This document shows positions 3,053 through 21,511 of a DNA stretch of 64,000 bases, in pieces; positions within the stretch are counted from its first letter, which is position 1; every line of letters starts with the position of its first letter. The position numbers and the translations under genes are program-made. This stretch comes from Catenulispora sp. MAP5-51 (GTDB taxonomy: Bacteria; Actinomycetota; Actinomycetes; Streptomycetales; Catenulisporaceae), in contig NZ_JBGCCH010000007.1 of assembly GCF_041261205.1 (NCBI RefSeq), forward strand, positions 1 through 64,000. Reading direction: 5' to 3'. Under the pieces are notes generated by a model. The model was not told the DNA's origin and ran no database searches. It saw only the letters and a program-made list of their open reading frames with translations.

Positions 3053-3150
3053 ATACTGCTCGACCTGCTGTTTGATGGCGCCTTGGCCACACTTTGAGGG
3101 GGTCGGGCAACGGTCACCGGAACGGTCCCCGAACTGCGCCGCGTGACGGC

Positions 3151-3492
3151 CTAGCGGTCCGCGCTCGGCCGAGTCGCGGCGAAGAGGTCATCCGCTGCTA
3201 GCGGGTCGAGCCGAATCGCTGCGCCCGTTCTAGGGGCGTCAAGAATGGCGCCGGCGCCGACGAAGATTGCCACATGATGAGCAAAATCGCTATTCCCATA
3301 GAAAACGAGATGCCTTGGCTTCAACGAGGTAAGGGGAACGGCCGGTCCGTGGCGATACTGGTCTGTGGCGGTGCGGGGAATGTTGATTCCGGCACTTGCG
3401 TAGGCCGCCATGGCCAACCCTGAACAGTCGTAGCCGGCATCGCCTTTGGCCGGCCCTTTGCAGCCCCAGACGTGCATCAGTGGCGACTCCAT
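3151..3492 (-). pseudogene. NlpC/P60 (C40) peptidase fragment, N-terminus lost
   Basis: The C-terminal catalytic domain of a cell-wall gamma-D-glutamyl-diamino-acid peptidase is clear: 'GYDCSGLAMAAYASAGINIP' carries the catalytic Cys (residue 23 from the first ATG), and 'FAHHVAIFVG' carries the His (residue 73). The strand that normally precedes the Cys ('PYVWGGKGP') is present as 'PLMHVWGCKGP' immediately after the first ATG, so the domain lacks its N-terminal helix. An in-frame TAA lies at 3504-3502, four codons upstream, and the sequence beyond it resembles the missing helix ('EALAAVR'). This fits a bifunctional lysozyme/C40 peptidase of a conjugative element that has been broken. It could still be expressed as a short protein, but activity is doubtful. 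Confidence 0.7.
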
Positions 3493-3801
3493 ACGGGTGG
3501 CTTATGCGCATGTCGCTGGCCGCGGCCGCACGATCCGAACCGCCGCCAGCGCTTCGCATGGCCACCCGGTCACGTGCGCTTTCGTGAAACGCCCGGCTAT
3601 TGAGTCACTCGGCCGTCGGACCCACCCGCCCAAACGAGCCCGGGGTAGAAGCGCTGGCGTTCACCTCCCGACCAACCCACGCTGCTCATGGAGCTGAAGC
3701 CCGGCCCATGCCCTGAGTGGCCTCGTTTGTCCGCTCCAGGGGAGGGGATCACGCCGTGTGAAGCTTGCGATGCAAGGGACCATCTCTCAATACCGGGAGC
3801 A
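3493..3801. other. Divergent intergenic region before the FAAL gene
   Basis: Holds the remains of the N-terminal part of the C40 peptidase on the minus strand and, presumably, the promoter of the FAAL-PKS operon on the plus strand. In-frame extension of the FAAL from 3688 gives sequence without family similarity, so it is treated as leader. Confidence 0.5.
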
Positions 3802-5685
3802 ATGATGCCTGTTCTTCAACAGCAAGATATAGCGGTCGACCAGTCGCTGATGAAGCTGCTTACTTATCGGGCGAAGAGCCGTCCATACGAGCGCGCATTC
3901 ACCTTCGTAGACTTCCCTGGGTCTGACGCCACCGGGTCCCACCGCACTTTGACCTGGAGCCAGCTCGAAGCGCGGGTACAAGCAATAGCAGTGCAACTGG
4001 TGCAATGGGCGAAGCCAGACGACCGCGTAGCGTTGGCGCTACCGCAGGGCCTTGATTATGTGGCGGCATTTCTCGGGTGTCTGCGCGCTGGCGTCGTGGC
4101 AGTGCCGCTGCTTCCTCTAGATGCGGCCGGCCACGCCGACCGTGTGGCCAGAGTGCTTGAGGACTGCGAGCCAGCTTGCGCCTTGGTGCCATTCGACAGG
4201 GCGCAGGAGCTGCGGACGTTTCAGGGGGCGTCCGGAGCGCGCGAGATTCCGCTTGTGCCCGTCGCCAGCGGGCACGTGACGCCAGATATTCCGAGCGAGC
4301 GGCCGGCAGCGATATCCCGCGACTGCCCGTCGTCATCGTTTGAGCCAGAGTTGGACGAGATAGCATACCTGCAGTACACGTCGGGTTCGACGCGCTCGCC
4401 CGCCGGAGTGATGATCAGCCATCGCAACATGGTCGTCAACGCGCTCCAGGCGCTCGCGAGCCTCGGTACTCCACTGCCACAGTTGACCGCCGTCAGTTGG
4501 CTTCCCCTGTTCCACGACATGGGTCTGATGCTCGGCATCGTGGCCCCGATCGTCGGCGGGTTCCCCGCCGTGCTGATGGACCCCGTCGCATTCCTGGAGA
4601 AGCCGGAGCGATGGCTGCGCCTGCTTGGCCAGTACCCGGGCACAGTCTCGGCCGCGCCGAACTTCGCGTACGACTATTGCGTGGCGAAGGTCGACCATGC
4701 GCGGATCGGCGAGCTGCGGCTCGACCGGGTGAAGATGCTCGTCAACGGAAGCGAGCCGGTGTCGTCGACCTCCTTGCAACGCTTCCAGCAAACCTTTGCG
4801 CAAGCAGGCTTGCGCCCGGAAGCGCAGCGGCCTTCATATGGCCTTGCGGAAGCCACCGTGTTTGTCACCACCCGTGTTGAGACGGCCGCTCCGTTGTACG
4901 TGGCATGCCGCCGCGACCGGCTCGCTGAGGGCTATATCGAGCCGGTCCCGCCAGAGACGGAGCAGACGGCATCAGACGCGGTCACAATGCTCGTGAGCTG
5001 CGGCGTCCCGGTTGGCCAAGAGTTGCGGATCATCGATCCGAGGACCCGCGCCGTACTGCCGGATGACACCGTGGGCGAGATCGCGGTACGCGGCCCAAAT
5101 GTTGCCCGAGGCTATTGGAAGCGCGCCGAGGAGACGGCCGAGGTCTTCGAGGCAGTGGTGCCGGGCACGGGCGAGCAGCCCTGGCTACGCACGGGCGATC
5201 TCGGGGCGGTCCACGACGGGCGGCTGCTGGTGACCGGCCGCCTCAAGGATCTGCTGATCGTCGACGGCCGCAACCACTATCCGCAGGACATTGAGGAGAC
5301 AGTCCGGGCTGCGCTGGATGCCGCGCCCAACGAGCGGATCGCAGTCTTTTCTGTGCCAGGGGAAGAGGGCGGTGAACAGGTCATTGCCGTAGCTGAGCGG
5401 CGCCGGGCCCAGATCCCGCAGGGCGCCGAACGCGCCGCACTCGATAGCGTGGCACGCGGTCGAGTCGCCACCGTACACGGACTGCGGCTCGAAGGGCTCG
5501 TTCTGGTCAGCCCCGCCACGATCCCGCGCACCTCCAGTGGCAAAGTCGCGCGAGTCCAGTGCCGCGCCGCGTTCTTGCAGGGCCAATACGCCGAGCACGG
5601 CGAATCCGGCACACCTGATGGCGCCGCACATGAGCTCACAGCAGCGCTCGAATCCGGAGAGCAGAGCGTGCAACGAAATGGGTGA
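3802..5685 (+). CDS. Fatty acyl-AMP ligase (FadD32-like)
   Basis: Activates a fatty acid as acyl-adenylate and passes it to a carrier protein, here most likely the N-terminal ACP of the next gene. The start is ATG 3802 or the adjacent ATG 3805, with GGGAG at 3795-3799. Adenylate-forming motifs in order: P-loop 'YTSGSTRSPAGVMISH' (T193-S194-G195-S196-T197), 'WLPLFHDMGLM' typical of FAALs, 'SYGLAEATVFV', the FAAL-type 'VSCGVPVGQELRIIDP', 'LRTGDLG' (D466) and the C-terminal lysine 'SSGKVARVQC' (K581). At 627 residues it is the usual FAAL length. Its stop overlaps the PKS start by 8 nt, so the two are translationally coupled, as fadD32 and pks13 are paired in mycolate producers. Fatty acid length cannot be read from sequence. 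Confidence 0.93.
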   Translation: MMPVLQQQDIAVDQSLMKLLTYRAKSRPYERAFTFVDFPGSDATGSHRTLTWSQLEARVQAIAVQLVQWAKPDDRVALALPQGLDYVAAFLGCLRAGVVAVPLLPLDAAGHADRVARVLEDCEPACALVPFDRAQELRTFQGASGAREIPLVPVASGHVTPDIPSERPAAISRDCPSSSFEPELDEIAYLQYTSGSTRSPAGVMISHRNMVVNALQALASLGTPLPQLTAVSWLPLFHDMGLMLGIVAPIVGGFPAVLMDPVAFLEKPERWLRLLGQYPGTVSAAPNFAYDYCVAKVDHARIGELRLDRVKMLVNGSEPVSSTSLQRFQQTFAQAGLRPEAQRPSYGLAEATVFVTTRVETAAPLYVACRRDRLAEGYIEPVPPETEQTASDAVTMLVSCGVPVGQELRIIDPRTRAVLPDDTVGEIAVRGPNVARGYWKRAEETAEVFEAVVPGTGEQPWLRTGDLGAVHDGRLLVTGRLKDLLIVDGRNHYPQDIEETVRAALDAAPNERIAVFSVPGEEGGEQVIAVAERRRAQIPQGAERAALDSVARGRVATVHGLRLEGLVLVSPATIPRTSSGKVARVQCRAAFLQGQYAEHGESGTPDGAAHELTAALESGEQSVQRNG

Positions 5686-8600
5686 TCTCCCGATGGGGAA
5701 CGCGGGCCTCGAGGCTGATGTGCGCAGGCTGGTCTTACGCCGTCTGCATGAATGGCACAAAATCGACCCGACGTCCGTCAAGCCCGACAGACCGCTCGCC
5801 GAACAGGGTGTGAGCTCGCGCGACGCGGTGGCGCTCGCCGCGGAACTGTCGGAACTTGCCGAGGTCCGCCTTCCGGCGACGCTATTGTGGGAAGCCTCGA
5901 CGCTCGATGACTTGGCGCGCGTTGTCGGCGAATACGCCGGGGCCACGACGCCACCGGTAACGTGCCCGGATGCAGCCTCCTCCCCGGGGGCGGTACAAAT
6001 CGCCGTGGTCGGTGTTGGCTGCCGACTGCCCGGCGCGGTGAACTCGGCTGAAGAGTTCTGGCGTCTGCTTACCGCCGGCTCAGACGCCGTCTCCACGCTG
6101 CCCGAAGACCGGTGGCAGGGGTTTGCCTCGCGCGGTGATCCCGCAACTGCCGAGGTGACCAAACACGGCGGGTTCCTTGACGACCTTGCGGGCTTCGACG
6201 CGGAGTTCTTCGGTATTGCGCCGAGTGAGGCCGCAGCGATGGACCCCCAACAGCGCCTTTTGCTGGAGGTCGCTTACGAGAGCCTGGACCACGCCTCGAT
6301 CCCAGCTCACTCACTCGCCAGCACGCGAACCGGGGTGTTCGTCGGTGTCAGCGGCAACGAATACGCGCACCTGACCACTTCCACTCTCGAGGGCATCCAA
6401 GCGTGGACTGCGCCGGGAATTGCCCTGAGCATCGTCGCGAATCGCTTGTCGTACATGCTCGATTTGCGCGGTCCCAGCCTCGTTGTAGATACCGCGTGTT
6501 CTTCTTCCCTCGTGGCAGTCCACCAGGCGGTGCGCAGTCTCGTCGGCGGCGAGTGCGACGCCGCGCTCGCCGGTGGCGTCAACATCTTGCTTTCTCCCAT
6601 GGTGACGCTGGGATTCCAGCGTGCGGGCGCACTTGCACAAGACGGCCGGTGCAAGACCTTCGATGCTGCGGCGGACGGCATGGTGCGCAGCGAGGGCTGC
6701 GCCGTCGTGGTCCTCAAGAGGCTTTCCGACGCTGAGCTTAGCGGGGACCGCGTCCTCGCCGTAATCCAATCAAGCGCAGTCAATTCGGACGGCCGCTCCA
6801 ACGGGCTGCTAGCACCCAATGGGGCATCCCAGCGCGCTCTGTTATCAGAAGTCTATGCCCGAGATGGCGTCACCGCCGCCGCAGACGTCGACTACGTTGA
6901 AGCGCACGGCACAGGCACGGCACTTGGCGATCCGGTGGAGGCTGGAGCTTTGGGAGCTGTGCTGGGCCGCGGACGTGACCCAGACCGGCCGCTGCTGGTC
7001 GGCTCGGTGAAGACCAATCTTGGCCACCTCGAAGCCGCGGCCGGAATTGCGGGGCTCGTAAAGACCGTACTGGCGCTCCATCACGGCGAACTGCCGCCGA
7101 GCCTGCACTTCGAACAGCCCAACGACCACATCGACTTCGACGCCCTCTCGCTACGGGTAGTCACCGGGCCCGAGCCCTGGCCCCGCTACTCGGGCCACGC
7201 CACCGCAGGCGTATCGGCGTTCGGGTTCGGCGGCACCAACGCCCACGTAGTGCTTCGCGAATACGCACCCGCCGAGGCCCGCCCAGCGCCGGACGAAATT
7301 GCGGCGCCCGGCATGATCGCTCTGGACGCGCCGACGAGTGACAGACTGCGGGACGCCGCTGGAGACCTTGCCGCATGGCTGAATTCGCCACAGGCGGCCG
7401 GGGTGCGTTTGAGCGATGCGGCGCACACGCTTGTGAGGCGCCTCGGCGCTGGCCGGCATAGGGGCGCCGTTGTCGCGCGCAGCCGTGAGCAAGCAGCTGA
7501 AGCGCTTACGCGGCTGGCGGCAGGTGAGCCGCACCCAGGATGTGTTGAATACCAAACCGACGCTCAGCAGCGCGTCGAGGCCGGCTCGGTGTGGGTGTTC
7601 TCAGGCTACGGCTCGCAGTGGCCTGGTATGGCCCGGCGTCTGCTGGACGAAGAGGCGGCCTTCGCTGCGGCCATCGACTCGATGGAGCCGGTGCTCGAGC
7701 GCTGCGCCCGGTTCTCCCTGCGCGACGTGCTCGCGACGGACTCCGCCCTGAGCGATCCCGCCATCGCACAGCCGGCGCTATTCGGGGTGCAAGTGGCGCT
7801 CGCTTCCCTGTGGCGGGCGTACGGACTGCGGCCCGCCGCCATGATTGGGCACTCCATGGGAGAGATCTCCGCGGCTGTTGCTGCCGGAGCACTCTCGCTC
7901 GAAGCGGGTGCCCAGATTATCGCCTCCCGCTCGCGCCTGCTTAGCGGGCTGACCGGCGGAGCCATGGCCGTCGTGGGCTGCAGCGAGGGCGAAATCGCGG
8001 GCATGGCCGGAGACCTGGCGAGCATCAGAATCGCTGTTCACTCGTCTCCCGAACAGGCCGTTGTCGCCGGAACAGCCGCAGACGTCGAACTGCTGACATC
8101 CCGAGTCGAGCAGGCGGGAATGACTGTGCGCGCTCTAGATATCACAGCGGCCAGCCACACGGAGCACGTCGACTCCGTTCTGGAAGCTTTCTCAAAGGAA
8201 CTCGGTGTGGTCACGCACCAGGAACCGACGTGCCGGTTCTATCGGACTGCCGTTGAGGACCCGCGCGGAACCAATCCTCTCGATGCCGTCTACTGGTTGC
8301 GAAACCTGCGCATGCCGGTGCGCTTCCGCCAAGCCGTGGCCGCAGCCGCGGAGGACGGCCACCGCGTCTTCCTCGAGATCTCTCCGCACCCCACACAGCT
8401 GCATCCCATCGCGGAGACGCTGCGCGCAACCGGGGTCGAAGACGCTCTGTTGCTTCCCACCCTGCGCCGCGGCGACGACGAGACAGCAGGCTTTCGCCTC
8501 TCGCTGGCCGCCCTGATGCTCCGAGGCGATGTCGATCTCAACCGCTACAAGATTTATCCCGATGCGCAGATCATCGACATCCCCTCGAGGCGCTGGCGGC

Positions 8601-10018
8601 ATCGGACCTACTGGGCTGGGCTTCAGCAGAACTATGTGGCCCCGGAACCCGAGAAGGCACTCCTGCACCCTGTCGCGGCCCAGCCGGTACTGAGCGCGTT
8701 AGACCGGCTGCGCGCGTGTGTTGCTCAAGTCCTGGGGTATGCGCCTGCCAGTGTCGACGGTGACACACCGCTAACACAACTCGGTCTCGATTCGTTGCAG
8801 GCTGCGCGGATCGTGACTGTCATCAAACGGGAGTTCGGCGTAGAAGTTCAGCCTCGGCTGCTCCTCGACGCGGGCACCGTTGCGAGCGTCGCCGCTCACC
8901 TCAACTTGATGCCATCAGCATCCACACCACGGAGCTGCCATCCGCAGCCGCGCGACATGACGGAACGCATGATTGCGCAGGCGTGGCAGAACGTCGGCGG
9001 CCGACCACCGGCCGGCGTGGACGACGAGCTGTCCGAGCTGGCCTCGGACTCCGTGCTGGCTGAGGCTTTCACTCGCGCCGTCAGCGCAAGCATCGGATGC
9101 TCCCTGGACACTATCGACCACTCGGATTCCCCGATCACTATTGCCTCGCTTGCCGACCGACTGCGGCCGCTGGCGGAGGCGCCCGTGGAAGGGAACCTCC
9201 GTGTGCTTCGCCCCGGTGGAAGCCGTCCACCGCTCTTCCTCATTCACCCTGCGGGCGGTACTACCGCCGTCTACCGCCCACTGTGCGACCGGCTCAGTAC
9301 GGAACAGCCCTGCTTCGGGCTCGAACGACTGGACGAAGCAACCGACGTAGGCGACCGCGCGGCGCAATACGCTCGCTTGATCTGGGAGACCCACCCCGAC
9401 GGCCCCTGGGCGCTCGGTGGCTGGTCGTATGGCGGCATCGTCGCGCAGGAGGCTGCGCGGCTGCTCGTGGAGGCTGGAGGCGAGGTCGGCGTTCTACTCC
9501 TGATCGATAGCGTGCTGCCGCTACCTATGCCCGCCCTCAGTTCGGGGCAGGCCGCTTGCGAGCGATACATGGCCTTCGCCGGCTATGTACGCAGCACCTA
9601 CGGAGCCGAGCTGGAGTTTCCGTACGACGAACTGGCTCTGATGAACGATGCGGAGCAGATCGACACGGTCATGGGTATCTTGGAGAAGAGTGGAGCTTTG
9701 CCGCCTTCCATCCTCAAACACCAGCGCGATTCCTACACCGACCTCCTCAGCGCCGAGCGGCACGATCCGGTCTCCTACTCCGGGCGCACTGTCCTCTATC
9801 GAGCGAGCGAAACGGCTCCCCACACGGTTTCCGACCCGCGTTATGAGCAGCATGACGAGGCCCTCGGATGGCAGCGACTATGCCGCGATCTGACGGTGAG
9901 ATCGGTACCGGGCCACCACTTGGCCTTGCTTGACCCGCCTGTCGTCGATGTTCTCAGCAACCTGTTCATCGCAGATCTTGAGTGCGTTGAACGGGAGCCC
10001 GCTCCGTCAACTCCGTAG
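5678..10018 (+). CDS. Pks13-like polyketide synthase, ACP-KS-AT-ACP-(ACP-like)-TE
   Basis: 1446 residues from ATG 5678, overlapping the FAAL stop. Domains: N-terminal ACP (about 10-80) with 'EQGVSSRDAVALA', the same SSRDAV context as the loading ACP of mycobacterial Pks13 (attachment Ser probably S47); KS (106-525) with Cys274 in 'DTACSSS', His410 'EAHGTGT' and His450 'KTNLGHLEAAAG'; AT (about 638-925) with 'GHSMGE' Ser726 and 'AASH' where extender-selecting HAFH/YASH sits; ACP (about 1005-1075) with 'LGLDSL' Ser1039; a further carrier-like domain (1092-1165) with 'LASDSVLAEAF' Ser1125; thioesterase (1180-1446) with 'GWSYGG' Ser1250 and 'GHHLALLD' His1414. No KR, DH or ER. Expected chemistry is one decarboxylative condensation of two acyl chains, giving a beta-keto product whose reduction needs a separate enzyme. 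Product unknown. Confidence 0.93.
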   Translation: MGDLPMGNAGLEADVRRLVLRRLHEWHKIDPTSVKPDRPLAEQGVSSRDAVALAAELSELAEVRLPATLLWEASTLDDLARVVGEYAGATTPPVTCPDAASSPGAVQIAVVGVGCRLPGAVNSAEEFWRLLTAGSDAVSTLPEDRWQGFASRGDPATAEVTKHGGFLDDLAGFDAEFFGIAPSEAAAMDPQQRLLLEVAYESLDHASIPAHSLASTRTGVFVGVSGNEYAHLTTSTLEGIQAWTAPGIALSIVANRLSYMLDLRGPSLVVDTACSSSLVAVHQAVRSLVGGECDAALAGGVNILLSPMVTLGFQRAGALAQDGRCKTFDAAADGMVRSEGCAVVVLKRLSDAELSGDRVLAVIQSSAVNSDGRSNGLLAPNGASQRALLSEVYARDGVTAAADVDYVEAHGTGTALGDPVEAGALGAVLGRGRDPDRPLLVGSVKTNLGHLEAAAGIAGLVKTVLALHHGELPPSLHFEQPNDHIDFDALSLRVVTGPEPWPRYSGHATAGVSAFGFGGTNAHVVLREYAPAEARPAPDEIAAPGMIALDAPTSDRLRDAAGDLAAWLNSPQAAGVRLSDAAHTLVRRLGAGRHRGAVVARSREQAAEALTRLAAGEPHPGCVEYQTDAQQRVEAGSVWVFSGYGSQWPGMARRLLDEEAAFAAAIDSMEPVLERCARFSLRDVLATDSALSDPAIAQPALFGVQVALASLWRAYGLRPAAMIGHSMGEISAAVAAGALSLEAGAQIIASRSRLLSGLTGGAMAVVGCSEGEIAGMAGDLASIRIAVHSSPEQAVVAGTAADVELLTSRVEQAGMTVRALDITAASHTEHVDSVLEAFSKELGVVTHQEPTCRFYRTAVEDPRGTNPLDAVYWLRNLRMPVRFRQAVAAAAEDGHRVFLEISPHPTQLHPIAETLRATGVEDALLLPTLRRGDDETAGFRLSLAALMLRGDVDLNRYKIYPDAQIIDIPSRRWRHRTYWAGLQQNYVAPEPEKALLHPVAAQPVLSALDRLRACVAQVLGYAPASVDGDTPLTQLGLDSLQAARIVTVIKREFGVEVQPRLLLDAGTVASVAAHLNLMPSASTPRSCHPQPRDMTERMIAQAWQNVGGRPPAGVDDELSELASDSVLAEAFTRAVSASIGCSLDTIDHSDSPITIASLADRLRPLAEAPVEGNLRVLRPGGSRPPLFLIHPAGGTTAVYRPLCDRLSTEQPCFGLERLDEATDVGDRAAQYARLIWETHPDGPWALGGWSYGGIVAQEAARLLVEAGGEVGVLLLIDSVLPLPMPALSSGQAACERYMAFAGYVRSTYGAELEFPYDELALMNDAEQIDTVMGILEKSGALPPSILKHQRDSYTDLLSAERHDPVSYSGRTVLYRASETAPHTVSDPRYEQHDEALGWQRLCRDLTVRSVPGHHLALLDPPVVDVLSNLFIADLECVEREPAPSTP

Positions 10019-10484
10019 TTGGGAAGCCATACCATGCCCCACTCCTTCGAGAGGATCGCCGCGTCGGCGCGCACTGCCGTCCCAGGCGGCCCCGTTCCAG
10101 CCGCGGCGCCGCGACTAGGGGTCCGGACGGCGGCCCCAAGACCGCTTCATGCGTCCCGAGGAAGGCTTCGCCAGGCCGCGGAGGACGATGTCTGTGCGCG
10201 CCAGCCACCTGGCAAGGCGATCACGAAGCCGACCTGCAGATCTGCACGCCGGCGCACAAAACCGCCATGTGGAACTGAGACAATCCGCCGCAGCAGGCAG
10301 GGAATCGCGTAGTAGGTCGCCATCGCGAACAGCCCGTCTCTGCATCGGCGCCACGCACGATTGGCCCGAACAGAACTTCAGCGTTCGAGGCCGGTCCTGG
10401 CGTAGTGCTTGCGTAGTGCCCTGGTTCTTTGCACGATCCGTCGCCGCGCGAAGCAAGCCGATACGACACGAGGATGAGTCAAGA
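10019..10484. other. Long gap between PKS and MFS genes
   Basis: About 465 bp. Frames are open on both strands but Arg/Ser-rich and without recognisable domains. The upstream in-frame extension of the MFS gene (from 10149) is judged non-coding. A decayed gene may lie here; no family could be named. Confidence 0.5.
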
Positions 10485-11903
10485 GTGGACGAAGACCGCT
10501 CGGTTATGCAGGCCACGGCCGAATCCACTACGCGGCGCCAGACCCTGACCGGATCCAGACGTAGTCGTAGTCGTCAAGCATCATCGACGATCGCGGCACG
10601 GTTGCGCCCACGTTCCTTCGTGGTCATCAACACCGACTTCACACGACTCTGGCTCGGGCAAGCCGCGTCCGGCATCGGCGACCAGCTGGCGCTGACGACC
10701 ATGGTGCTCTGGATCGGCACGACGCTGCTTCGTGGCGAGCAGCGCGCACCCGCCGTGGTCGCAGGGCTGATCGTCGCCGAGTCGATTACGGTTTTGCTTG
10801 TTGCACCTGTCGCAGGGGTCTTTGTGGACCGCTGGGACAGGCGCCGCATCATGCTGGCCGCAGACTTGGCTAGAGCCGGACTCTATGCGGGAATTGTACT
10901 TGTGGCGGCTGTCGGCGCGAGGCACGTGCAGCTCTGCATCGTGCTCCTATACGCCGTCACTGTCGGATCGGCGGCTGCGGCCCGGTTCTTCATTCCGGCC
11001 CGTGCAGCCTATGTCGCCGACATCGTCCCGGGGGCCGCCGCGCGTGCGCGGGCCTCCGGAATTGGCCAGGCAACCGACGCAGCAGCGATCATCGCCGGAC
11101 CGCCTCTCGCCGCACCGCTCCTGTTGTCTGCAGGACCGCAGTGGGCCTTGGCGCTGAACGCGGCGTCGTTCCTCTTTTCCTACGCCGTGGTCCGTCGTGT
11201 CCATGCCCCGGCCCTTGCGCGGTTGACTGTTGACGAGTCAGGCGGCTGCACCTTGGGCCTCTGGAGAGAGTTCGTCGCCGGAGTGCGGTTCATCGCGAGG
11301 AACCGCGTGTTGCTGGTTCTCACTGTCTCAGTGGTGGTCAGTACACTCGGGGCTGGGGCGCTCAGCGCGCTCGGCGTCTTCTTCACCATGCGGAACCTGC
11401 ACGCAACGGCAAGCTTCTATGGCTTCCTTGGACTCTCCTTCGGCATCGGGATTGCAGCCGGTGCCCTGGCCGGCGGAGCGCTTGCCGCGCGTTATGGTCC
11501 GGCTCGGGTTCTCAGCGGCGGACTGCTGTCGGCAGGGCTCTTGGTCACCGTCTATGCCAAGCAGGGCAGCCCCTGGCCCGCACTAGCCGTGCTGGCACTG
11601 ATTGGAGTGCCGGTGGGCGTGCTGAATACGCTGATCGGCTCGATGCAGTTGGCTGTGACGCCGCGCGAGCTTCTCGGCCGGGTTAACGCGACGATCAATC
11701 CTATCCAGCAGGTGGCCGGCTTGGTCTCAACAGCCGTCGCAAGCTGGCTGGTCAGTAGCGCGCTGCCAGGGCTGAACGCGGATATCGGTGGTGTGCACTT
11801 CGGGCCGATCGACACCGTCTACTTCGCGAGCGCAGTGCCCATCCTCGGCGGAGGACTGTACGCCTTTCTCGCGCTACGGCGTGAGCATCACGGACTATCC
11901 TAG
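10485..11903 (+). CDS. MFS exporter (MFS_3/EntS-like)
   Basis: About 470 residues. The start is uncertain: GTG 10485 has AGGA 10 nt upstream, and ATG 10506 is the alternative. After an Arg/Ser-rich leader come 10-12 hydrophobic segments. 'FTRLWLGQAASGIGDQLALT' at the N-terminus and the loop motif 'GVFVDRWDRRRIML' are typical of the EntS-like MFS_3 group, which exports siderophores and natural products. It sits on the same strand behind the FAAL and PKS, so it probably exports their lipid product. This would take the place that an RND transporter (MmpL3) has in mycobacteria; that is inference from position. Its 3' end abuts a truncated cytochrome P450 on the opposite strand. Confidence 0.85.
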   Translation: MDEDRSVMQATAESTTRRQTLTGSRRSRSRQASSTIAARLRPRSFVVINTDFTRLWLGQAASGIGDQLALTTMVLWIGTTLLRGEQRAPAVVAGLIVAESITVLLVAPVAGVFVDRWDRRRIMLAADLARAGLYAGIVLVAAVGARHVQLCIVLLYAVTVGSAAAARFFIPARAAYVADIVPGAAARARASGIGQATDAAAIIAGPPLAAPLLLSAGPQWALALNAASFLFSYAVVRRVHAPALARLTVDESGGCTLGLWREFVAGVRFIARNRVLLVLTVSVVVSTLGAGALSALGVFFTMRNLHATASFYGFLGLSFGIGIAAGALAGGALAARYGPARVLSGGLLSAGLLVTVYAKQGSPWPALAVLALIGVPVGVLNTLIGSMQLAVTPRELLGRVNATINPIQQVAGLVSTAVASWLVSSALPGLNADIGGVHFGPIDTVYFASAVPILGGGLYAFLALRREHHGLS

Positions 11904-11910
11904 ATCTAAC

Positions 11911-12063
11911 ATGCGCGCGCATTTTCCAGGTGTCGAATCCATCTCGCCGTCGGATGGGGACGACGGGGGCGGTCTCCCGGATCCGGTTCAGAAGCGAATA
12001 GGGGTCGTGTTGTTGGGCGAGGTCAGCGGGGAGCTCAACGGGAGGCATGACTGGATCGGTCAT
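11911..12063 (-). pseudogene. Cytochrome P450 N-terminal fragment
   Basis: From ATG 12063 the frame reads 'MPPVELPADLAQQHDPYSLL' then 'NRIRETAPVVPIRRRDGFDTW', the standard N-terminus of bacterial P450s ('DPY..L..LRE.APV.....DG...W'). Similarity stops after about 50 residues at the point where the MFS gene ends on the other strand (11903). The heme-binding and helix I regions are absent. A purine-rich stretch lies upstream of the ATG. Best read as a P450 gene cut by insertion of the FAAL-PKS-MFS segment or by a deletion. Confidence 0.65.
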
Positions 12064-13002
12064 CGGCTGTCACCACCTTTCCGGGCGGGGGATTAGCGCG
12101 AGCCGGGTAAGCGGGGGACCCAGGACGGGGTGGGATCGTCGCGGTTCAGTGCCTTCTCGATGACGATCATCTTGTGATAGCAGTGCAACGCCGTGACGGT
12201 GCGGTCGAGCAGGGATGGTTGCCGATGACGTTTCCTGGAAGTGCAGGCCGTCAACGAGCGTCCGCCATCAACGGAGGCTGGGATAGTCCACAGGATCGGA
12301 CAGAACTCAGCCCTCGTTCGCAGGCCTCGGATCCAAAGACCGGCCATTTGGTAGACGAGCCTAGGCAGAGGCCGGTCCACTGGCGCGGCGCGCAACTTCG
12401 CGACCGTAGCGGCAACAAGTGGTCCGCTCGACCGGCTGAAGGTGGTCCGGCCGAGCGCGGTGCGGGTGTCATCCATGACTGAACCGTCCGCTAGATCTTG
12501 TCAAGCATCGCCTCGTCGGCTGCACTCCAAACACAGTCAGCATCACCGGCGACAGCCGGCGGAAGGCGCACCGTGGAGTTCACCCGGCTCGCGCCACGGG
12601 GCGCGCTGCGCTTCGGTGGTCGCAGGTTCGGATCCCGCTGAAAGAACCCTCTGACCAGACAATCCCCCCAACTGTCGCGTGAAATGGCGCCCTGAGACCC
12701 CACCCGAGATCCGAACTCCTGATCTGAGTCTGTTAGTGGCCGCGCCGCGCGCAGAGTAGCGCTATGCCACATTTGGCTACCCGCCTTGGTAACCGCATGC
12801 CGACGCAACAATGACGAACAGGGCCGCGCCACCGCCTGCGAGGCGTGTTGGGAGCATGTCGGCCAAAGGCTGCGACCGTGGCGCCGATCTCGGTGGTGTC
12901 CTTGACTTCGGCGCCGATCTGGACGAGGCGCAGCTGTGGGTCTCAGAGGGCGCTAAGTGAGCTGTAGGAAGCGCATCCGTCGGTGTCTGGGCACTCCGGC
13001 CA
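12064..13002. other. Decayed non-coding stretch
   Basis: Nearly 1 kb without an intact gene. A 127-residue minus-strand frame (12476-12093) has no recognisable domain and could be the ruin of a gene that preceded the P450. Short tRNA-like pieces (around 12620 and 12698-12782) do not fold into a complete tRNA. The last part leads into the IS5-type remnant. Confidence 0.5.
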
Positions 13003-13342
13003 GTTCGAGCTGCGGGAGATCGTGAACGGATCCTGTTTCAGGCACGAGCCGGCTGCGCGTGGCAACAACCGCCGCCCGATCTTCCGCCGTGGTCGGCGGT
13101 GTACTACTACTTCGCCAAGTGGCGTGACGACGGCACCGATCAGTTGATCCACGATCTGCAGATTTGGCAGGTGTGGGAGAAGACTGGATGAGCCGAGGAT
13201 TCGACTGCGGTGGTGATGGACTCCCAGACGGTGCGGGCGGCGAACTCCGTGCCGGCCACCATCACAAGCCTGGATGTGGGAAGGCAGTCCCCGGGCCGTA
13301 AGCGCGGGATTGCCACTGACGTCATAGGGCTGATTATCGGCT
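13003..13342 (+). pseudogene. IS5-family transposase remnant
   Basis: Three blocks match the N-terminal half of IS5-family transposases: 'ELREIVN' (about 13008-13027), then, after a one-base deletion at about 13030, 'ILFQARAGCAWQQ' followed by 'DLPPWSAVYYYFAKWRDDGT' and 'IHDLQIWQVWEKTG', and after an in-frame TGA (13189-13191) 'STAVVMDSQTVRAA' and 'GRKRGIATDVIGLIIG'. The DDE-domain Asp of 'MDSQ' remains but the rest of the catalytic domain is missing. One frameshift and one nonsense codon show that it is dead but not very old. Terminal inverted repeats were not found by eye. Confidence 0.8.
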
Positions 13343-13742
13343 CCGAAAGGGGCGAAAGCTTATCTAACGCCCTCTAGGGGGCACAGCAATGCGCTACGGC
13401 TACCCGACCGTTTGCCCTGCCTTCCCTGCTGGGTGCACTGTGTTGCTCGAAGAAAGGCGACCCGGTGCGCCAACCTGCCGAACGCCTGCCCCAGGAGCTG
13501 ATCGGGGCGGAGTCCACCGCCCATATCGGCCCCGACCTAGCGAGCGCACCGAACCCGCATGCCACAGGGCAATGGGCACCTGAAGACCCTCAGGCTGGGG
13601 CAGGCGACCTGGACCTGCAGATCCCGAAGGGGTGCCGGACCGGGCCGCCCTTCGCGAGCGCCTGAAGCCCGCGCCGAGCCGTTCGACGTCGTTCGGCGCG
13701 TAGCCGTCTCGCGACCCGCTGCCCCAGGTGATGGCGACGGTT
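13343..13742. other. Gap between IS5 remnant and esterase gene
   Basis: About 400 bp without a supported gene. Frames on both strands are short and show no domain. It contains the 3' flank of the esterase gene; no clear terminator hairpin was seen. Confidence 0.5.
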
Positions 13743-14864
13743 TTAGGAAGGCAGGCCGAGGCCGGCGGCGAGCACCGGCCAGGAGGCGGCGAACGTGACC
13801 TTCCAGGAAATCCAGTTGTGAATACCGCCCCTGTAGAAGTCAGCTTGTGCCGGGATGCCGAGCATCTTCAGTCGGTTGATGAACGCGATGTTCTGCGGTA
13901 GCAGTACCCCGCCCTCCGCCCAAAGCCCGAGCGTTCCTGCTAAGTCCTGAGCTTCTTCGCCGACTCCGTCGCCGCAGGAGAGGAACAGGGAGGTCCCACG
14001 CAGGTTGGCCGCTTGTGAGTAGGGGTTGTTCTCGTCGCGTAGCCGTCTGCCGATGCTGCTGCTCGGATCCCCCCATACCGCGTTCGGTGAATATCCCTGC
14101 CACAAATCGCCCATCATCATCAGTAAGGATGTGCCGGGAGTAGTCGTGTCGACGATCCCGCTGTACGACGCGGCTGCAGCGAAGGTCCGCGGGTAGTGCG
14201 CAGCCAGGATCATGGCACCGTAACCGCCAGAGGATACGCCAGCCACAGCGCGTTTGGGTTTCGCGTGGTAGTCGCGTTCCATTAGTTGCATAAGCTCTAC
14301 GGCGTCGAAGGCTTCGTAGTCGGGTCTTTCTTCGCCGTTGTTCCACCAGCGGGTCGCCAGGGCGATCGGGCTGTTGTCGGGCATGACGACGATTAGATTC
14401 CTTGTGGAGACGAAGGACTCGATGTCAGTCTCCCGAGTCCAGGCGGCGTAACTGTCCCTGCCGCCATGCAGAAGGAAGAGCACGGGCCATCGGGTGCCGT
14501 CTGCGTCGGCGCTCCAGCCGGTTGGGACGATGATCCTCACAGGGACCACGGAGCCGACAGCCGCAGAGCCGACGTCGAGGTCGGCCATGTGCGGGTCGAG
14601 CCAGGTCTCGGATTGGACGTATGATCCGTCGTCGGCCTTTCCGGTCGGCGGGGCGACCGCGATCGGCCTCGTGGATGAAGAGGGCACCGGTGATTGCAGT
14701 GACGGCGGGACCGGAATAGTCGAGGCCGATTGAGTCATACTTTGAGCCGGCATTGGGTCATCTGCCTGACCTGCGGATGAGGTCGGCGAAGAGGTCAACC
14801 AGACACATGACGTGAGTGCGAGGACCAAGGCCAGACCCCAGGCTGGACGTGGCATGTTAGACAT
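13743..14864 (-). CDS. Antigen 85-type secreted esterase/acyltransferase, putative lipoprotein
   Basis: 373 residues. The ATG at 14864 follows a GAGAGAAGA tract. The N-terminus has a hydrophobic signal ending in 'LALTSC', a plausible lipobox with Cys20, then a Ser/Pro-rich linker to about residue 80. The rest is the esterase D/antigen 85 (PF00756) alpha/beta hydrolase: 'VLFLLHGGRDSYAAWT', nucleophile 'AGVSSGGYGA' (Ser211), acidic residue near 'LSCGDGVGEE' (D299/E303) and 'GGIHNWISW' (His349), comparable to the His-Ser/Asn-Trp motif of Ag85. Antigen 85 enzymes transfer mycolyl chains between trehalose and the cell wall outside the membrane; related proteins are simple esterases. In this neighbourhood a role in transferring the PKS product to a sugar acceptor is attractive but inferred. 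No regulator is adjacent. Confidence 0.85.
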   Translation of the reverse strand: MSNMPRPAWGLALVLALTSCVWLTSSPTSSAGQADDPMPAQSMTQSASTIPVPPSLQSPVPSSSTRPIAVAPPTGKADDGSYVQSETWLDPHMADLDVGSAAVGSVVPVRIIVPTGWSADADGTRWPVLFLLHGGRDSYAAWTRETDIESFVSTRNLIVVMPDNSPIALATRWWNNGEERPDYEAFDAVELMQLMERDYHAKPKRAVAGVSSGGYGAMILAAHYPRTFAAAASYSGIVDTTTPGTSLLMMMGDLWQGYSPNAVWGDPSSSIGRRLRDENNPYSQAANLRGTSLFLSCGDGVGEEAQDLAGTLGLWAEGGVLLPQNIAFINRLKMLGIPAQADFYRGGIHNWISWKVTFAASWPVLAAGLGLPS

Positions 14865-15189
14865 CGTTCTTCTCTCTCAGGCGGGCGCATGGGGCGGTCT
14901 GCATCAGTGTCCGTAATGTCGGAGATATTCACCACGAAGGCCATCGAACTGAGACGGCGGCGAACGCAGGTCCAGGCACAGGCTGTGCAAGCCGACGGCG
15001 CATAGTTGTTTGCGAGCTGTAGGGAAACTCGGAGCCGGTTGCTCGCTAGGCTGGCGACGTGTTCGGATTGTCTGGCGAATCTGACGTCAGCAGGAGCACC
15101 CGCCACAGTCTCGACGCCCATGTCAGGCCAAGTCGGCTCGTGGAGGGTGCCCCGGTCTCGTGGATCTTCGATGACGGTCTGAGCTGATC
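14865..15189. other. Gap upstream of the esterase gene
   Basis: About 325 bp between the esterase start and the IS256 remnant. It must contain the esterase promoter; no other feature is evident. Confidence 0.5.
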
Positions 15190-16250
15190 TTATGCGGCTT
15201 TTGTGTGCGTGATGGGCTGTGTCGGGTGATCCGTCCGGGTGGTTTCCTCGAGTGCTGTGAAGAGCTTCGGCATCTGGGCGTCGTCTTTGACGCGGCGGAA
15301 TTGGGCGTGGCCTGGGCCATGCCGGTGCCGGTCCACAACATGACCATCTTGCCGTCGCGGCAGCGGGTGGCGTTCTTGTTGACGCGCCGGGCGATGGAGA
15401 ACATCTCGGGCAGGCCTTTGGCGCAGCGATGCGGCGACACCAGGTGGGCCTTCTCCAGCGAGGCGGCCAGGTTGTGCATGGCCCGCTCGGCACGGACCGC
15501 GTCGGGCTAGGTGAAGATCGCGGCCAGCTTGGCGTCGATGCGGGCGCGGTCGGGCTCAGGCAGGTGGTCGGCGACGTTGCGGTGCTTGCGGATCTGGCGT
15601 CTTTAAATCAGGACATTGCTTCCGAAGGCGCGGCGAGGTCCGGCGGACAGCGCCTTGCCGCCGTCGACGACGGCCAACAGCGCATCCTCGGCGGACAGAC
15701 CGCCCTCGTCGGCGCCGATACCGAGCGCGACGGCCATGCAGTGTGGTCGCCGATGTGTACCCCGTCGACCACGAAGACCTTGTGTCAGCCCGGACAGGTC
15801 GACGGCCAGCAGCGCGGCCAACGCGGTCTTCGCCGCCGCGACGAACCGGCGGGACGTCGCCGTCGGCACGACATCGGCGCCGACCGGTTCGCCGGTGCAG
15901 GTATGCCGTCGGGTGGCGACCCCGGCCAGCATCTTCTCCACCACCACCGCAGTGAGCTGGTCCTCGGCAGCGAACGTCCGGTGGCTGTCCAAGGGCGCCT
16001 CGGCGCCGTCGGCGCCGCGTACTCACGGCCGGGTCACCTCCACACGACACCCGCCCAGCTCGACCAGGCCGCGCCCGCGGCCATGGCGTGCCGCAGTCCG
16101 CTCGGCGTCGTGCTTCCCGTGCGACCCGACCAGCTGCTCGACCTCGGCATCGAACATCGCCTGCGTCACGGCCATGCCAGCCGCGACGCTCATTGCCAGC
16201 AGGGCCTCGCGGGCCACGGCGGCGATGTCGCAAGGTTTCGGCCAGCCCCA
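15190..16250 (-). pseudogene. IS256-family (mutator-type) transposase remnant
   Basis: Read on the minus strand in several frames. The N-terminal part gives 'AREALLAMSVAAGMAVTQAM' then 'EVEQLVGSHGKHDAERTAAR', a middle part 'VVVEKMLAGVATRRH', 'TSRRFVAAAKTALAALLAVD' and 'MAVALGIGADEGG', then 'QIRKHRNVADHLPEPDRARI' followed by an in-frame TAG, 'LAASLEKAHLVSPHRCAKGL' and 'SIARRVNKNATRCRDGKMV', and the tail 'RRVKDDAQMPKLFTALEE' ending at TAA 15190. This order is that of actinobacterial IS256-type transposases. Several frameshifts, the stop, and a deletion before 'SIARRV' (the usual 'TNTIESM' segment is missing) make it inactive. Confidence 0.8.
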
Positions 16251-16937
16251 CGGGCAACCGTGCCCGCGCGTCGGGCGTGTCAGTATTCAGTCACCAGGCG
16301 CAGGTTGGGTATCGTCATCTTCACGGCGGTCCCTCGGGTTTCGGGTCGAATGTGGCGCTCCACCCGATCTACCACCCAGTGGATCTCAGGTGGGGGACCG
16401 CCACCTTCCAAGTTCCACAAGAGCCGGGACGTCCTCCGGCTCGCGTGTTCTGCCGGGCTTAGCCCAGCGCTGCCCTGGACCAGCGTCGCGTGCCAAGCCG
16501 GTTGATGTCGCGATACGGCGGCCACCGAGGCCGGGCGATCGAGGTCGGCGCCGCATCACTGAGATCGTGCTTGCCTGCCGTTCTTCGGTACAGCCTGGCC
16601 GGCGTCGTTGCGAGTGCGGTCGGTCCGGTGTGGGCGCGGACTGCGCGGGAACCGCACCTGGAGCCGCATCCGTGCGGACCCTTGGTCGCGCTCTCCTGCC
16701 CGGCGCGGAAGTACGCGACTCATTGAAGGATCGGGGCCTTGCCATGAGTGCAAGATCGATCGGCCACACCGCCTCAAGTTGCACGTCCGTTCCCCTGCGC
16801 CGGCCTGATCTGCGCTCAGGTCGCACCCGTGACATGGGGCCCCGGAAGCAGCGATGGTGCGCCGCCCGTGCTCAGTGAAGACGCTGCGTCATCGGGTGAC
16901 CAAGAATGCTGCTCTTCGCAACACCCCATCGTGGCTG
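16251..16937. other. Non-coding stretch between IS256 remnant and glycosyltransferase
   Basis: About 690 bp. Open frames on both strands are Arg/Pro-rich shadows without domains. It may contain the outer part of the decayed IS256 element and its target; no end repeats could be defined by eye. Confidence 0.5.
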
Positions 16938-18479
16938 TCACGGTCGGTGCATCTGGTCCCACATGCTGTCCCAGGGGGCGCGCGGTCCGGTGCACAACCA
17001 GATCGGCACGTCCTGGTTGGCAACCTCAATGTTCACGTGGTCGAGGTGGACGGTGCCCACCTGGCGCACCGAGTTGAAGAACCCTGCGATCCAGCGACCG
17101 TCGCCACCAACATAGAGTACTTGACGAGTGCTTGCAGGCGGCGGCCCGGCGTACCAGTAGCCCCGCTCTGGCCCGTACGCCGCAGGCAGACCGTCGGCGC
17201 GACCGAAGACCTCCAGCGCGCTGGCTTGCCAATAGGAGTCACCCATCACAGCCGTGTGTGTGCGAACGGCTGGGGGCACGCGGTGGTAGGCGGCTGCCGT
17301 GGCTTCCGCGAGTTTCGGCCAGCCGTAGCTACCGCTGGACACGAAGTCGACTAGCGTGACGCCGGTGAACCCGTCCGCTGGACGGACTGGCAGGCTTACG
17401 TAGATCGCCAACGGAACGGACAATACGAACACGGGCCAGGTCGGAACCCAGCGCCACCAGCGCGCCGGAGGACGACGCTCGATCCGTGCAGCCGAAGCCG
17501 CGAACAGCACCGCATACAGCCCTGCGAGGTAGTAGTAGCGGTCGGCGGAGTACACGAGCACGACGGGCACCACCACGCCCGCCCAGCCGAACATTCGATA
17601 GTCGCGCAGTTCTGGAGCGCACAACAGGCAGTAGAATCCATGGCACACGAGGAAAGCGCCGACTAAGAGGCCCGCCATCAACACCGCGAGCGGCACTATG
17701 GCCATTGGACCTCCAAGCAACCTCCGGTCCTGCTCTATGACCACCCCGCGCATTAACAGATAAGGCCATCCATGGTTGGCCTGCCAAACGAGGGTCGGCA
17801 GCGTGAACAGCACGGTGATTGCGCCGCCCAACCACAGCAACGGACGAGACAACAGTCTGCGGGGGCCTGCGACGAGCGCACCGATGGCCAGCCCGAGCCA
17901 GAAAAAGACGATCAAAAACTTGGCCTGCATCGCGACTGCCGAGGCGATCCCGGAATACAACAGGAGTCTGTCAGCGCGAGTCCGCACCCAACGCACCACT
18001 AGCCAGCTGACCAGTACCCAGCAGAACGGGTCCACCGTGTTGGTCGCCAGCATGTGTCCGGACTCGAGAAGCTGAAAAGACAGTGCGTACGCTGCCGCCG
18101 CCATGATCTGTGCTCGCGCAGCGCCGCCGAATTCGCGGGCAATGAGCGCACACAGTACTACGCCGAAGACCGTGAGCAGCATAGGCAGAAGCCTCATGCC
18201 GACCACAGAGCCGGGAAACAGCAGGTCAAAAAGCCTGGCCAGTTGGGGCAGAAGCCAAGGATTATCCTCGTATCCCCAGGCAGGGTGGTATTTCCCGGAA
18301 GCAAGAAAGTAGAGTTCGTCACCGAAGTAGCCGAACCGGGCACTCACCGCCAGCAGCACCGCCCCGGTCGCGCCCGCGATGGCGAGCACCGGCGCGCGTG
18401 AGAACGCCGGCAGGGTTCCCGACTCTTTCTGGCAGGCGTCGGCAGTGCTTACCGCCCCGGAGAATTCTGATAGGCCCAC
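16938..18479 (-). CDS. GT-C membrane glycosyltransferase (GT39/ArnT-like)
   Basis: About 513 residues. GTG 18479 is preferred to TTG 18491 because GGAG lies 6 nt upstream. Roughly 10-12 membrane segments are visible. The first extracytoplasmic loop has 'RFGYFGDELYFLASGKYHP', whose acidic pair (D54-E55) matches the DE motif of GT-C enzymes that use polyprenyl-phosphate sugars. The last ~130 residues form a soluble C-terminal domain outside the membrane. The family includes protein mannosyltransferases and ArnT-like lipid/sugar transferases, acting on the outer face of the cell membrane. It lies 51 bp after the SDR gene on the same strand, so the two may be co-transcribed. The acceptor is unknown; a link to the nearby Ag85-like esterase is possible. 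Confidence 0.8.
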   Translation of the reverse strand: MGLSEFSGAVSTADACQKESGTLPAFSRAPVLAIAGATGAVLLAVSARFGYFGDELYFLASGKYHPAWGYEDNPWLLPQLARLFDLLFPGSVVGMRLLPMLLTVFGVVLCALIAREFGGAARAQIMAAAAYALSFQLLESGHMLATNTVDPFCWVLVSWLVVRWVRTRADRLLLYSGIASAVAMQAKFLIVFFWLGLAIGALVAGPRRLLSRPLLWLGGAITVLFTLPTLVWQANHGWPYLLMRGVVIEQDRRLLGGPMAIVPLAVLMAGLLVGAFLVCHGFYCLLCAPELRDYRMFGWAGVVVPVVLVYSADRYYYLAGLYAVLFAASAARIERRPPARWWRWVPTWPVFVLSVPLAIYVSLPVRPADGFTGVTLVDFVSSGSYGWPKLAEATAAAYHRVPPAVRTHTAVMGDSYWQASALEVFGRADGLPAAYGPERGYWYAGPPPASTRQVLYVGGDGRWIAGFFNSVRQVGTVHLDHVNIEVANQDVPIWLCTGPRAPWDSMWDQMHRP

Positions 18480-18530
18480 GAAATGCTCCAACCCTCACGG
18501 TTCCGGACGGCCGCAGTGGTTCGGCCGAGG

Positions 18531-19388
18531 TCACGCCCTGGCGGCGGTGAGCCAGTAGCGCACCCGGTCTGGCAGCCTCGCAGCCAGGGCGCCGAGGTGA
18601 GCGTCGAGGCCCACCACATACCGAGGCCTGGGGTAACGGGCGGTGAGGGCCTTTACAATAACCTGAGCAGGACGGCTCGGAGGCAAGCCACGGTGCTCGG
18701 TACGTTTGGCTGATGTTCGTGCTGCGGTAATTTGGTCCGCATATTGCTCACGTGCGGCATCCGGCAACGTCTCCTCGAGTTCCGCGAAGGACGCAGCCAT
18801 CTTGCTCCATACCTGTGTAGCAACGGCACCGGGCTCAATCAGCACAACCTTGATGCCGAAAGGTGCAAGCTCGGCGCGCAGGCTGTCGGTCAAGCCGACA
18901 ACGCCGAACTTCGAGATCTGGTACGGGCCATGGATAGTTCCGGCGATCCGGCCGACGATCGAACCCACCTGCACGATGCGGGCCGTCCCGCTCTGCCTCG
19001 CGGCAAGTCTCAGCGCAGGGAGCACTGCCTGGGTAACCGCAAGGTGGCCGGTCAGGTTGATCTCCAACTGTCGCCGAAACGCGTCGAGCGGTGTGTGCTC
19101 CAGCGGCCACGGCATGGGCATGGCAGCATTGTTCACCAGGCCATCGAGCGGACCGTCCGCCACCACTTGCTGCGCTGCGGCGGACACCGATTCAGGGTCG
19201 GAGAGGTCCATTCGTAACACGCGGACTCCTGCCGGATGATCTCGCAGCAGGGCTTTCTCGTCCGAATCAGAACGCACTGTGGCCCACACTCTGGCGCCTA
19301 TACGCACTAGTTCGTCGACGCAGGCCCGCCCGATCCCGCTCGACGCCCCCGTGACCATATATGTCCTTACCGCCATGAAATGAAGCAT
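18531..19388 (-). CDS. Short-chain dehydrogenase/reductase
   Basis: 285 residues. The cofactor motif 'TGASSGIG' (13-20), 'NNAA' (86-89), catalytic Ser143 ('VGSIVGRIAG'), Tyr156 and Lys160 ('YQISK') give a classical SDR, probably NADPH-dependent since Arg39-Ser40 follow beta-strand 2. The start is ATG 19388, with ATG 19376 as alternative. C-terminal features ('GLPPSRPAQVIVKALTARYP', 'RYVVGLDAHLG') are of the group that reduces long-chain beta-keto or hydroxy lipids and steroids. In mycobacteria the beta-keto product of Pks13 is reduced by an SDR (CmrA); this gene, 8.5 kb from the Pks13-like synthase and just upstream of a glycosyltransferase, is a candidate for that step, but many SDRs look alike. 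Confidence 0.85.
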   Translation of the reverse strand: MLHFMAVRTYMVTGASSGIGRACVDELVRIGARVWATVRSDSDEKALLRDHPAGVRVLRMDLSDPESVSAAAQQVVADGPLDGLVNNAAMPMPWPLEHTPLDAFRRQLEINLTGHLAVTQAVLPALRLAARQSGTARIVQVGSIVGRIAGTIHGPYQISKFGVVGLTDSLRAELAPFGIKVVLIEPGAVATQVWSKMAASFAELEETLPDAAREQYADQITAARTSAKRTEHRGLPPSRPAQVIVKALTARYPRPRYVVGLDAHLGALAARLPDRVRYWLTAARA

Positions 19389-21353: not shown

Positions 21354-21511
21354 GGCACACACTCCCTTGGATGGTCGGTTGTTTCGGCACCGGTGAACGG
21401 CGCCGTGAGAGGGCCCACGTCGGTCGCACGGGTCACCGCCGGACCGGTGGAACATCCCCGCGAGCCTCGGCTTGGAACCGGGGGCTTCTGCGGGTCTTCC
21501 CGAAAGGGCTG

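Follow-up and report, generated by a model that had tools for sequence, protein, structure and literature searches.

A probable sister of the mycolic acid condensation-and-transfer system in the non-mycobacterial actinomycete Catenulispora

We analyzed the first 64,000 nucleotides (hereafter the window) of contig C7 (NZ_JBGCCH010000007.1) in the 10.9 Mb genome of Catenulispora sp. MAP5-51 (G000). Between positions 3802 and 19388, six intact open frames with Pfam matches over cut-off encode a fatty acyl-AMP ligase (FAAL), a polyketide synthase (PKS) and a major facilitator superfamily (MFS) protein on the forward strand, and an esterase, a GT-C glycosyltransferase-like protein and a short-chain dehydrogenase/reductase (SDR) on the reverse strand. 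This is the gene content listed in the original prediction, which was made from the sequence alone and read the island as a mycolate-like lipid pathway. Our comparisons indicate that the six genes probably form a non-mycobacterial sister of the mycolic acid condensation-and-transfer system, likely making an alpha-alkyl beta-keto or beta-hydroxy acid that the esterase would place on an outside acceptor. The features are as follows.

3802..5685, + strand: FAAL (PF00501 and a DIP2-like AMP domain; FAAL tree)
5537..10018, + strand: open frame of the single-module Pks13-type PKS, with a likely start at 5693
5768..5946, + strand, approximate bounds: first acyl carrier protein domain (ACP1; SSRDAV at residues 93-98 of the 1493-aa frame; aligned to Pks13 ACP1)
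5996..7264, + strand: ketosynthase (KS) domain, DTACSSS (PF00109/PF02801)
7589..8521, + strand: acyltransferase (AT) domain, GHSMGE (PF00698)
8147..8158, + strand: AT specificity motif AASH (alignment)
8702..8902, + strand: ACP2, GLDSLQA (PF00550)
8948..9214, + strand: degenerate ACP3-like domain (hidden Markov model of 26 Pks13 ACP3s)
9230..9952, + strand, end approximate: thioesterase (TE) domain, GWSYGG (PF00975; aligned to Pks13 TE)
~10503..11903, + strand, probable start: putative MFS exporter (PF07690/PF05977; 70% identity to its neighbouring counterpart in G008, another genome of the genus)
13743..14864, - strand: Ag85/PS1-type esterase, proposed acyltransferase (PF00756, PDB match, tree, predicted fold)
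16938..18491, - strand: GT-C membrane glycosyltransferase-like protein, PMT_2 (PF13231; 80% identical in the G008 operon)
18531..19388, - strand: SDR oxidoreductase, candidate beta-ketoacyl reductase (PF00106; 81% identical in the G008 operon)

Pfam, together with the hidden Markov model (HMM) for ACP3, gives the PKS the order ACP1-KS-AT-ACP2-ACP3-TE, with ACP3 degenerate and with no dehydratase (DH), enoylreductase (ER) or ketoreductase (KR) domain; the five active-site motifs listed above for ACP1, KS, AT, ACP2 and TE are present by eye. The order ACP-KS-AT-ACP-TE without reductive domains had been predicted, as had the SSRDAV loading motif, which aligns with ACP1 of Pks13; the degenerate ACP3 before the TE is an addition. 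Such a degenerate ACP3 has been described for Pks13 (PMC9900942). In the window PKS it covers residues 1138-1226 (protein E 8e-8, domain E 3.9e-6), compared to a best value of E 5.9 among 200 shuffled controls, and the HMM also detects it in the G008 PKS (E 2.7e-7), in Actinacidiphila (4e-11) and, weakly, in Actinokineospora (L055, 2e-5; L-numbers denote the loci compared). The best PDB sequence match of the window PKS is Pks13. Its score with the NCBIfam Pks13 model NF040607 is 1237 bits, below the cut-off of 2100. That cut-off is exceeded in 25 of 296 genomes of the class; 24 of these have one such protein each and all belong to one family (f6, Mycobacteriaceae by inference), while the 25th reaches the score by summing several modules of one long frame.

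To place the PKS, we built a KS-AT tree of 61 rows and 889 columns. Before trees and counts were made, some near-identical Pks13s, the duplicates L040 and L042-L044 (the same genes as those of L137-L140) and a few long, short or cut rows were removed. The 17 Pks13 rows form a clade (support 100/100), and these rows together with 32 rows of a wider family, the window included, form another (99/99). The window PKS lies on a separate branch rather than inside the Pks13 clade: it groups with the PKSs of G008 and S. albicerus (100/100) and, with them, joins eight Streptomyces-type rows (93/98). Outside the combined clade fall the modular PKSs, the FAAL-PKSs of cyanobacteria and a further FAAL-PKS type from the f6 genomes (L127, L143). 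The last of these, found in genomes of mycolate producers, branches just outside it and has the AT motif VASH or VAPH.

The FAAL behaves similarly. The NCBIfam models that score highest with it describe FAAL families, and none reaches its cut-off (FadD32 model: 463 bits versus 975); the FAAL tree assigns it to a family group of 31 rows (SH-aLRT 93) that is separate from the FadD32 clade. As judged from trees and model scores, then, the window PKS is a sister form of Pks13 and the FAAL a sister form of FadD32, neither being a member. The FadD32-like and Pks13-like labels of the original prediction, for which a KS and FAAL phylogeny had been proposed as the check, hold in this sense of kinship and not of membership. 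Across 21 clusters, KS-AT, FAAL and esterase give correlated pairwise distances (0.94-0.95), a level reached in none of 2000 permutations; the pattern counts for less in that it can stem from common species descent too.

The AT specificity site reads YASH in methylmalonyl ATs and HAFH in malonyl ATs, as described in PMC6164871. With four duplicate rows excluded, the first residue of the motif is Gly or Ala in all 32 family PKSs and in all 37 Pks13s, compared to none of 13 other ATs, which have Tyr, His, Val or Cys. The AASH of the window occurs in one of the 37 Pks13s, the remaining 36 having GASH or GAGH, and it differs from the commonest family motif, GAGH (22 of 32). A motif that is neither YASH nor HAFH, together with the KS-AT tree, leads us to reject an ordinary modular PKS module. 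When four family PKSs were scanned with Pfam, DH and KR domains appeared in three (Amycolatopsis L046 and L063, and one Actinacidiphila); that of S. albicerus lacks them, as does that of the window.

The esterase had been predicted to have an antigen 85 fold, and both sequence and structure bear this out. Its best PDB sequence match is Corynebacterium glutamicum PS1 (E 6.5e-34). The predicted structure (mean pLDDT 77.8; 183 of 373 residues at 90 or above) superposes on C. glutamicum mycoloyltransferase A with Z 34.6 and an rmsd of 2.7 over 287 aligned residues, and the 22 best PDB entries are all mycoloyltransferases (including corynomycoloyltransferase), Ag85 or MPT51, although the 22nd (Z 30.5) is level with the best-scoring esterase of another kind (Z 30.0). 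The esterase tree places the window in a group of 30 rows (96), whose neighbour, with a support of 88 for the join, is a group of 34 Ag85/PS1 proteins from mycolate loci (99); most generic PF00756 esterases fall elsewhere. The window protein thus falls in a sister group, outside the Ag85/PS1 clade. A profile of the closest esterases ranks proteins roughly in the order clusters, PS1, Ag85 (51-126 bits) and generic esterases (43 bits or less), the exception being an own-genome esterase (L145) that at 90 bits overlaps Ag85. These comparisons suggest that the esterase is a sister form of the Ag85/PS1 mycoloyltransferases. By eye it is exported, and its N-terminal LTSC resembles a lipobox. Genome G296, which has a PKS and an esterase of this type, carries two further Ag85-like esterases outside clusters (L171, L174) that belong to the family's esterase group.

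We searched for the FAAL in 60 genomes, the window's own included, scoring the 20 best candidates per genome at E 1e-120. Matches were found in seven: the window genome, G008 (one of nine other members of the genus) and five of 46 genomes from the order; four genomes sampled from two further genera of the same family gave none. In G008 all six genes are co-directional, in the order FAAL>PKS>MFS>SDR>GT-C>esterase, with identities to the window of 72% (FAAL), 71% (PKS), 70% (MFS), 81% (SDR), 80% (GT-C) and 62% (esterase). It follows that the window holds the same cluster with its SDR-GT-C-esterase half inverted. The FAAL (E 1e-120), esterase (1e-40) and SDR (1e-50) each occur in the same two of ten genus genomes, as does the GT-C at 80%; the next best GT-C matches within the genus are 41% identical over 194 residues and 39% near full length. 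On this comparative evidence the six genes are one unit, as had been predicted. Since G008 is possibly the nearest species, conservation in two genomes is by itself modest evidence, and the linkage in the wider family weighs more.

A different account would be that unrelated genes were juxtaposed by rearrangement. The inverted half fits this view, as do the stretches of non-coding-looking DNA at its left edge (1.8 kb) and between esterase and GT-C (2.1 kb), and SDR, GT-C and MFS are linked to the PKS at high identity in only two of the 32 family members. The co-directional operon of G008 rejects a set of chance neighbours, the genes occur in the same two genomes of the genus, and for FAAL, PKS and esterase the idea is refuted by linkage in many genera; overall we consider it highly improbable. 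The original prediction had also raised the possibility of transposon debris between the parts. We did not confirm this: ten intergenic pieces gave no Pfam match, no other test aimed at transposons being made, and an Rfam scan of the window returned a single tRNA and nothing more. A short frame at 11752-12063 (- strand), without a Pfam match, resembles the start of a cytochrome P450 by eye.

Linkage beyond the genus is extensive for the core genes. In the five order-level matches, Streptomyces-type by their named relatives, the order is AccD, FAAL, PKS, Ag85-like esterase, PucR/CdaR-type regulator and cutinase. Scanning named genomes with the FAAL alignment yielded at least 80 loci; among the matches listed, FAAL, PKS and Ag85-like esterase occur together in Streptomyces, Amycolatopsis, Saccharopolyspora, Actinokineospora, Actinacidiphila, Nonomuraea and Spirillospora, and FAAL and Ag85-like esterase in Actinomadura rubrisoli. 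Counting partners of the 32 family PKSs of the KS-AT tree, with 6 to 64 kb of DNA per locus, we found a FAAL for 28 (in that DNA none was seen for L135, L138, L139 and L141), an Ag85-like esterase for 25, AccD for 15 and a crotonyl-CoA carboxylase/reductase (CCR) for six others; the remaining 11, which include the window and G008, are without either gene nearby. The CCR of the S. albicerus cluster scores 533 bits versus a cut-off of 378, and the other five share 57-64% identity with it. An MmpL-family gene is present in L046, L052, L056, L062 and L140 of the 32, and also in L059-L061. L012 and L050 have FAAL, AccD and Ag85-like esterase, with PKS frames that are not in the KS-AT tree. The absence of AccD4 and MmpL stated in the original prediction is accurate for the window cluster, but many family clusters carry AccD or CCR, or MmpL.

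Conservation of a FAAL-PKS-MFS-esterase-SDR set had been suggested as a check, and it divides. FAAL, PKS and esterase are linked in many genera, whereas only the window and G008 have an MFS and a GT-C of the window type and a close SDR next to the PKS; L063 and L133 have SDR matches there as well, but weak ones (32-37% over fewer than 200 residues). Long open frames in some Pseudonocardiaceae had looked like FAAL-PKS gene fusions; we dropped this reading because FAAL and PKS occupy different frames.

Two observations concern neighbours in these clusters. A cutinase-family gene follows the Streptomyces-type cluster in all eight loci (L010, at 2937-3578, L011-L014 and L047-L049), those of L048 and L010 being 92% alike; the mycobacterial mycolate cluster contains the cutinase-like gene Rv3802c (PMC2625445). 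In Amycolatopsis tucumanensis (L046), the gene at 7542-8474, close to the FAAL and flanked by MmpL and MFS genes, encodes an R2-like ligand-binding oxidase (NF006199, over cut-off).

Several results weigh against a sister of the mycolate system. Trees of the KS only are weaker, with SH-aLRT 97 for Pks13 and 35 rows in a quick tree and 69/81 in a careful one, and an approximately unbiased (AU) test on the KS alone does not reject placement of the window with Pks13 (p 0.078). The latter result, like the best PDB matches (Pks13 and PS1), would also suit a true mycolate pathway transferred from a Mycobacteriales donor; with KS-AT, FAAL and esterase all outside the Mycobacteriales clades and the Pks13 and FadD32 models well under cut-off, the likelihood of such a transfer appears very low. 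ACP3 was undetected in the S. albicerus PKS, and Streptomyces AccD-type PKSs did no better than 0.006 with the ACP3 HMM. Where the esterase group meets Ag85/PS1, the SH-aLRT is 88 and long branches were flagged. Outside the genus, the nearest relatives lack a GT-C or SDR partner resembling that of the window. The SDR had been likened to CmrA and the GT-C grouped with the mycolate genes, and neither association was upheld: in eight of eight Mycobacteriaceae-type genomes the best SDR matches are at most 40% identical and differ in strength, with no close kin, no CmrA identified as such and no support for orthology, and the GT-C has no match beside mycolate loci at E 1e-10.

The supply of extender units speaks for the sister reading in the wider family and against a long alpha chain in the window. 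Determinants of medium-chain acyl-CoA carboxylation include Gly161 of MccB versus Phe in PccB, and Ala versus Asp at PccB 421/422 (PMC5187497). We mapped these two pocket sites by alignment with PccB chains. Site 1 is Gly (7) or Val (11) in the 18 family AccDs and Gly (34) or Ser (3) in 37 AccD4s; site 2 is Ala (17) or Gly (1) in the former and Ala in the latter. Medium-chain-type residues or near equivalents are therefore present in 18 of 18 family AccDs and 37 of 37 AccD4s, compared to none of five own-genome AccDs, all with Phe at site 1. The family proteins are nonetheless not true AccD4s, as the AccD tree puts them nearer to an own-genome PccB-like protein than to AccD4, though their pocket residues agree with AccD4. 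The operons of the window and G008 have no linked AccD or CCR; with the CCR query the window gave a single match (30% identity), at a gene of the medium-chain dehydrogenase/reductase type that is under the CCR cut-off. Carboxyl-transferase matches number 10 in G000 and 11 in G008, and nine from each were aligned, the others being the second half of a counted gene (one per genome) and one G008 match that was not alignable. Six in each genome are at least 31% identical to a family AccD, and all have Phe at the first site; in the remainder (24-29% identical) the two sites read Ala/Leu or Leu/Val, which is not the AccD4 pattern, in a region where the alignment is unsure. A long-chain-type AccD was thus not found among the 18 aligned proteins of G000 and G008, and a search for a CCR dedicated to the window was likewise negative: the single CCR over cut-off in G000 is unlinked, among genes resembling MeaB, thiolase and epimerase by eye. 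Taken together, these results indicate that the alpha branch in this host may be short, that is, methyl or ethyl.

A short branch would suit a single-module FAAL-PKS natural-product cluster, in which a fatty starter and one methylmalonyl or ethylmalonyl unit yield a small diffusible alpha-methyl or alpha-ethyl beta-hydroxy acid, the GT-C protein glycosylates it, a plain secreted esterase processes it, and the likeness to mycolate enzymes reflects ancestry and not function. The lack of a long-chain-type AccD in both operon-bearing genomes is consistent with this, as is the departure of AASH from the commonest family motif; FAALs moreover serve many natural products, and a C5 FAAL starter is tabulated, as a hypothesis, for the catenulisporolides (PMC11837247). 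The esterase, however, lies in a branch next to Ag85/PS1, apart from most generic esterases, and tracks the PKS, and the AT motif is neither that of methylmalonyl nor that of malonyl ATs. We regard such a product as unlikely, though a serious candidate. The mycolate-like reading of the original prediction therefore survives in part: the PKS, with its AT site and ACP3, and the esterase stand as sisters to mycolate counterparts, while the enzymes are not FadD32 and Pks13 proper and the long-chain-type AccD is missing from those found.

For the preferred reading, a sister of the mycolate system, the known roles of Pks13 and of the enzyme families suggest the following scheme. The FAAL would activate a fatty acid as acyl-AMP and load it onto ACP1 of the PKS, and the AT, with its Pks13-like open specificity site, would load an alpha-substituted malonyl unit onto ACP2. 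Decarboxylative Claisen condensation by the KS would join the two units, and the TE would release an alpha-alkyl beta-keto acid or ester, whose beta-keto group the SDR probably reduces. The MFS protein would export the lipid; outside the membrane, the exported Ag85/PS1-type esterase would transfer the acyl group to an acceptor, the sugar part of which the GT-C protein may make.

Other features flank the cluster. IPT/TIG-repeat proteins are encoded on both sides (23-934, + strand; 19674-21455 and 21512-22855, - strand), one of them with beta-propeller/YNCE matches, and DNA resembling the left IPT/TIG stretch borders the G008 cluster (L008, 3426-5611). Further on, a single open frame (26787-27980, - strand) carries a WHH nuclease domain and, after it, a SUKH-1 domain, toxin-type and immunity-type respectively, and may be a fusion or a mis-joined pair.

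The fadD32-pks13-accD4 locus is stated to be exclusive to mycolic acid producers in a Pks13 structure paper (PMC9900942), while a review, which describes how the mycomembrane arose as a mystery, puts the genes for mycolic acids exclusively after a late node (PMC6194230). Our results suggest that the heart of the pathway is shared more widely than thought. A tentative proposal, in which our confidence falls somewhat short of even, is that FAAL loading, Claisen joining of two acyl chains by an ACP-KS-AT-ACP-ACP3-TE synthase, dedicated alpha-carboxylation, export and Ag85-type transfer make up an old actinobacterial cassette with which Streptomyces, the window's genus, Pseudonocardiaceae and Streptosporangiales-type hosts decorate a surface or exported acceptor with alpha-branched beta-oxy lipids, mycomembrane mycolates being one derived branch. 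A sister system in hosts without mycolates would provide an outgroup for the question of mycomembrane origin, one open to testing in safe soil strains, predicts a class of alpha-branched lipids and their acceptors, and supplies non-pathogen relatives of the tuberculosis drug targets Pks13 and Ag85.

Among the papers listed by our searches of open-licence PMC literature, judged by title and opening of the abstract, we found no description of the FAAL-PKS-esterase family as a mycolate relative, and this wider family, of which Pks13 is one branch, is apparently undescribed. Cryptic, widely conserved single-module PKS clusters with an MccB-type acyl-CoA carboxylase have been reported in Amycolatopsis (PMC5187497); these are probably of the same family as L046 and L052, which they resemble in having one PKS module and an AccD with Gly/Ala pocket residues. 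The available portions of that paper draw no link to mycolate enzymes. The PKSs of L046 and L063 differ from that of the window in having DH and KR. Lipstatin-type pathways of Streptomyces make alpha-alkyl beta-hydroxy acids, a product class like that proposed here, by other condensing enzymes. Compared to the fadD32-pks13-accD4 locus and fbp/PS1 of the Mycobacteriales, the window has sister lineages of FAAL and PKS, an SDR for which CmrA orthology is unsupported, no AccD4, MmpL or Ag85 proper in the cluster, and a host in which a long-chain-type AccD was not found. What the two have in common is a FAAL, a single-module PKS of the order ACP1-KS-AT-ACP2-dead ACP3-TE, a Gly/Ala AT site and an Ag85/PS1-type esterase, and the window's relatives add an AccD with similar pocket residues, or MmpL.

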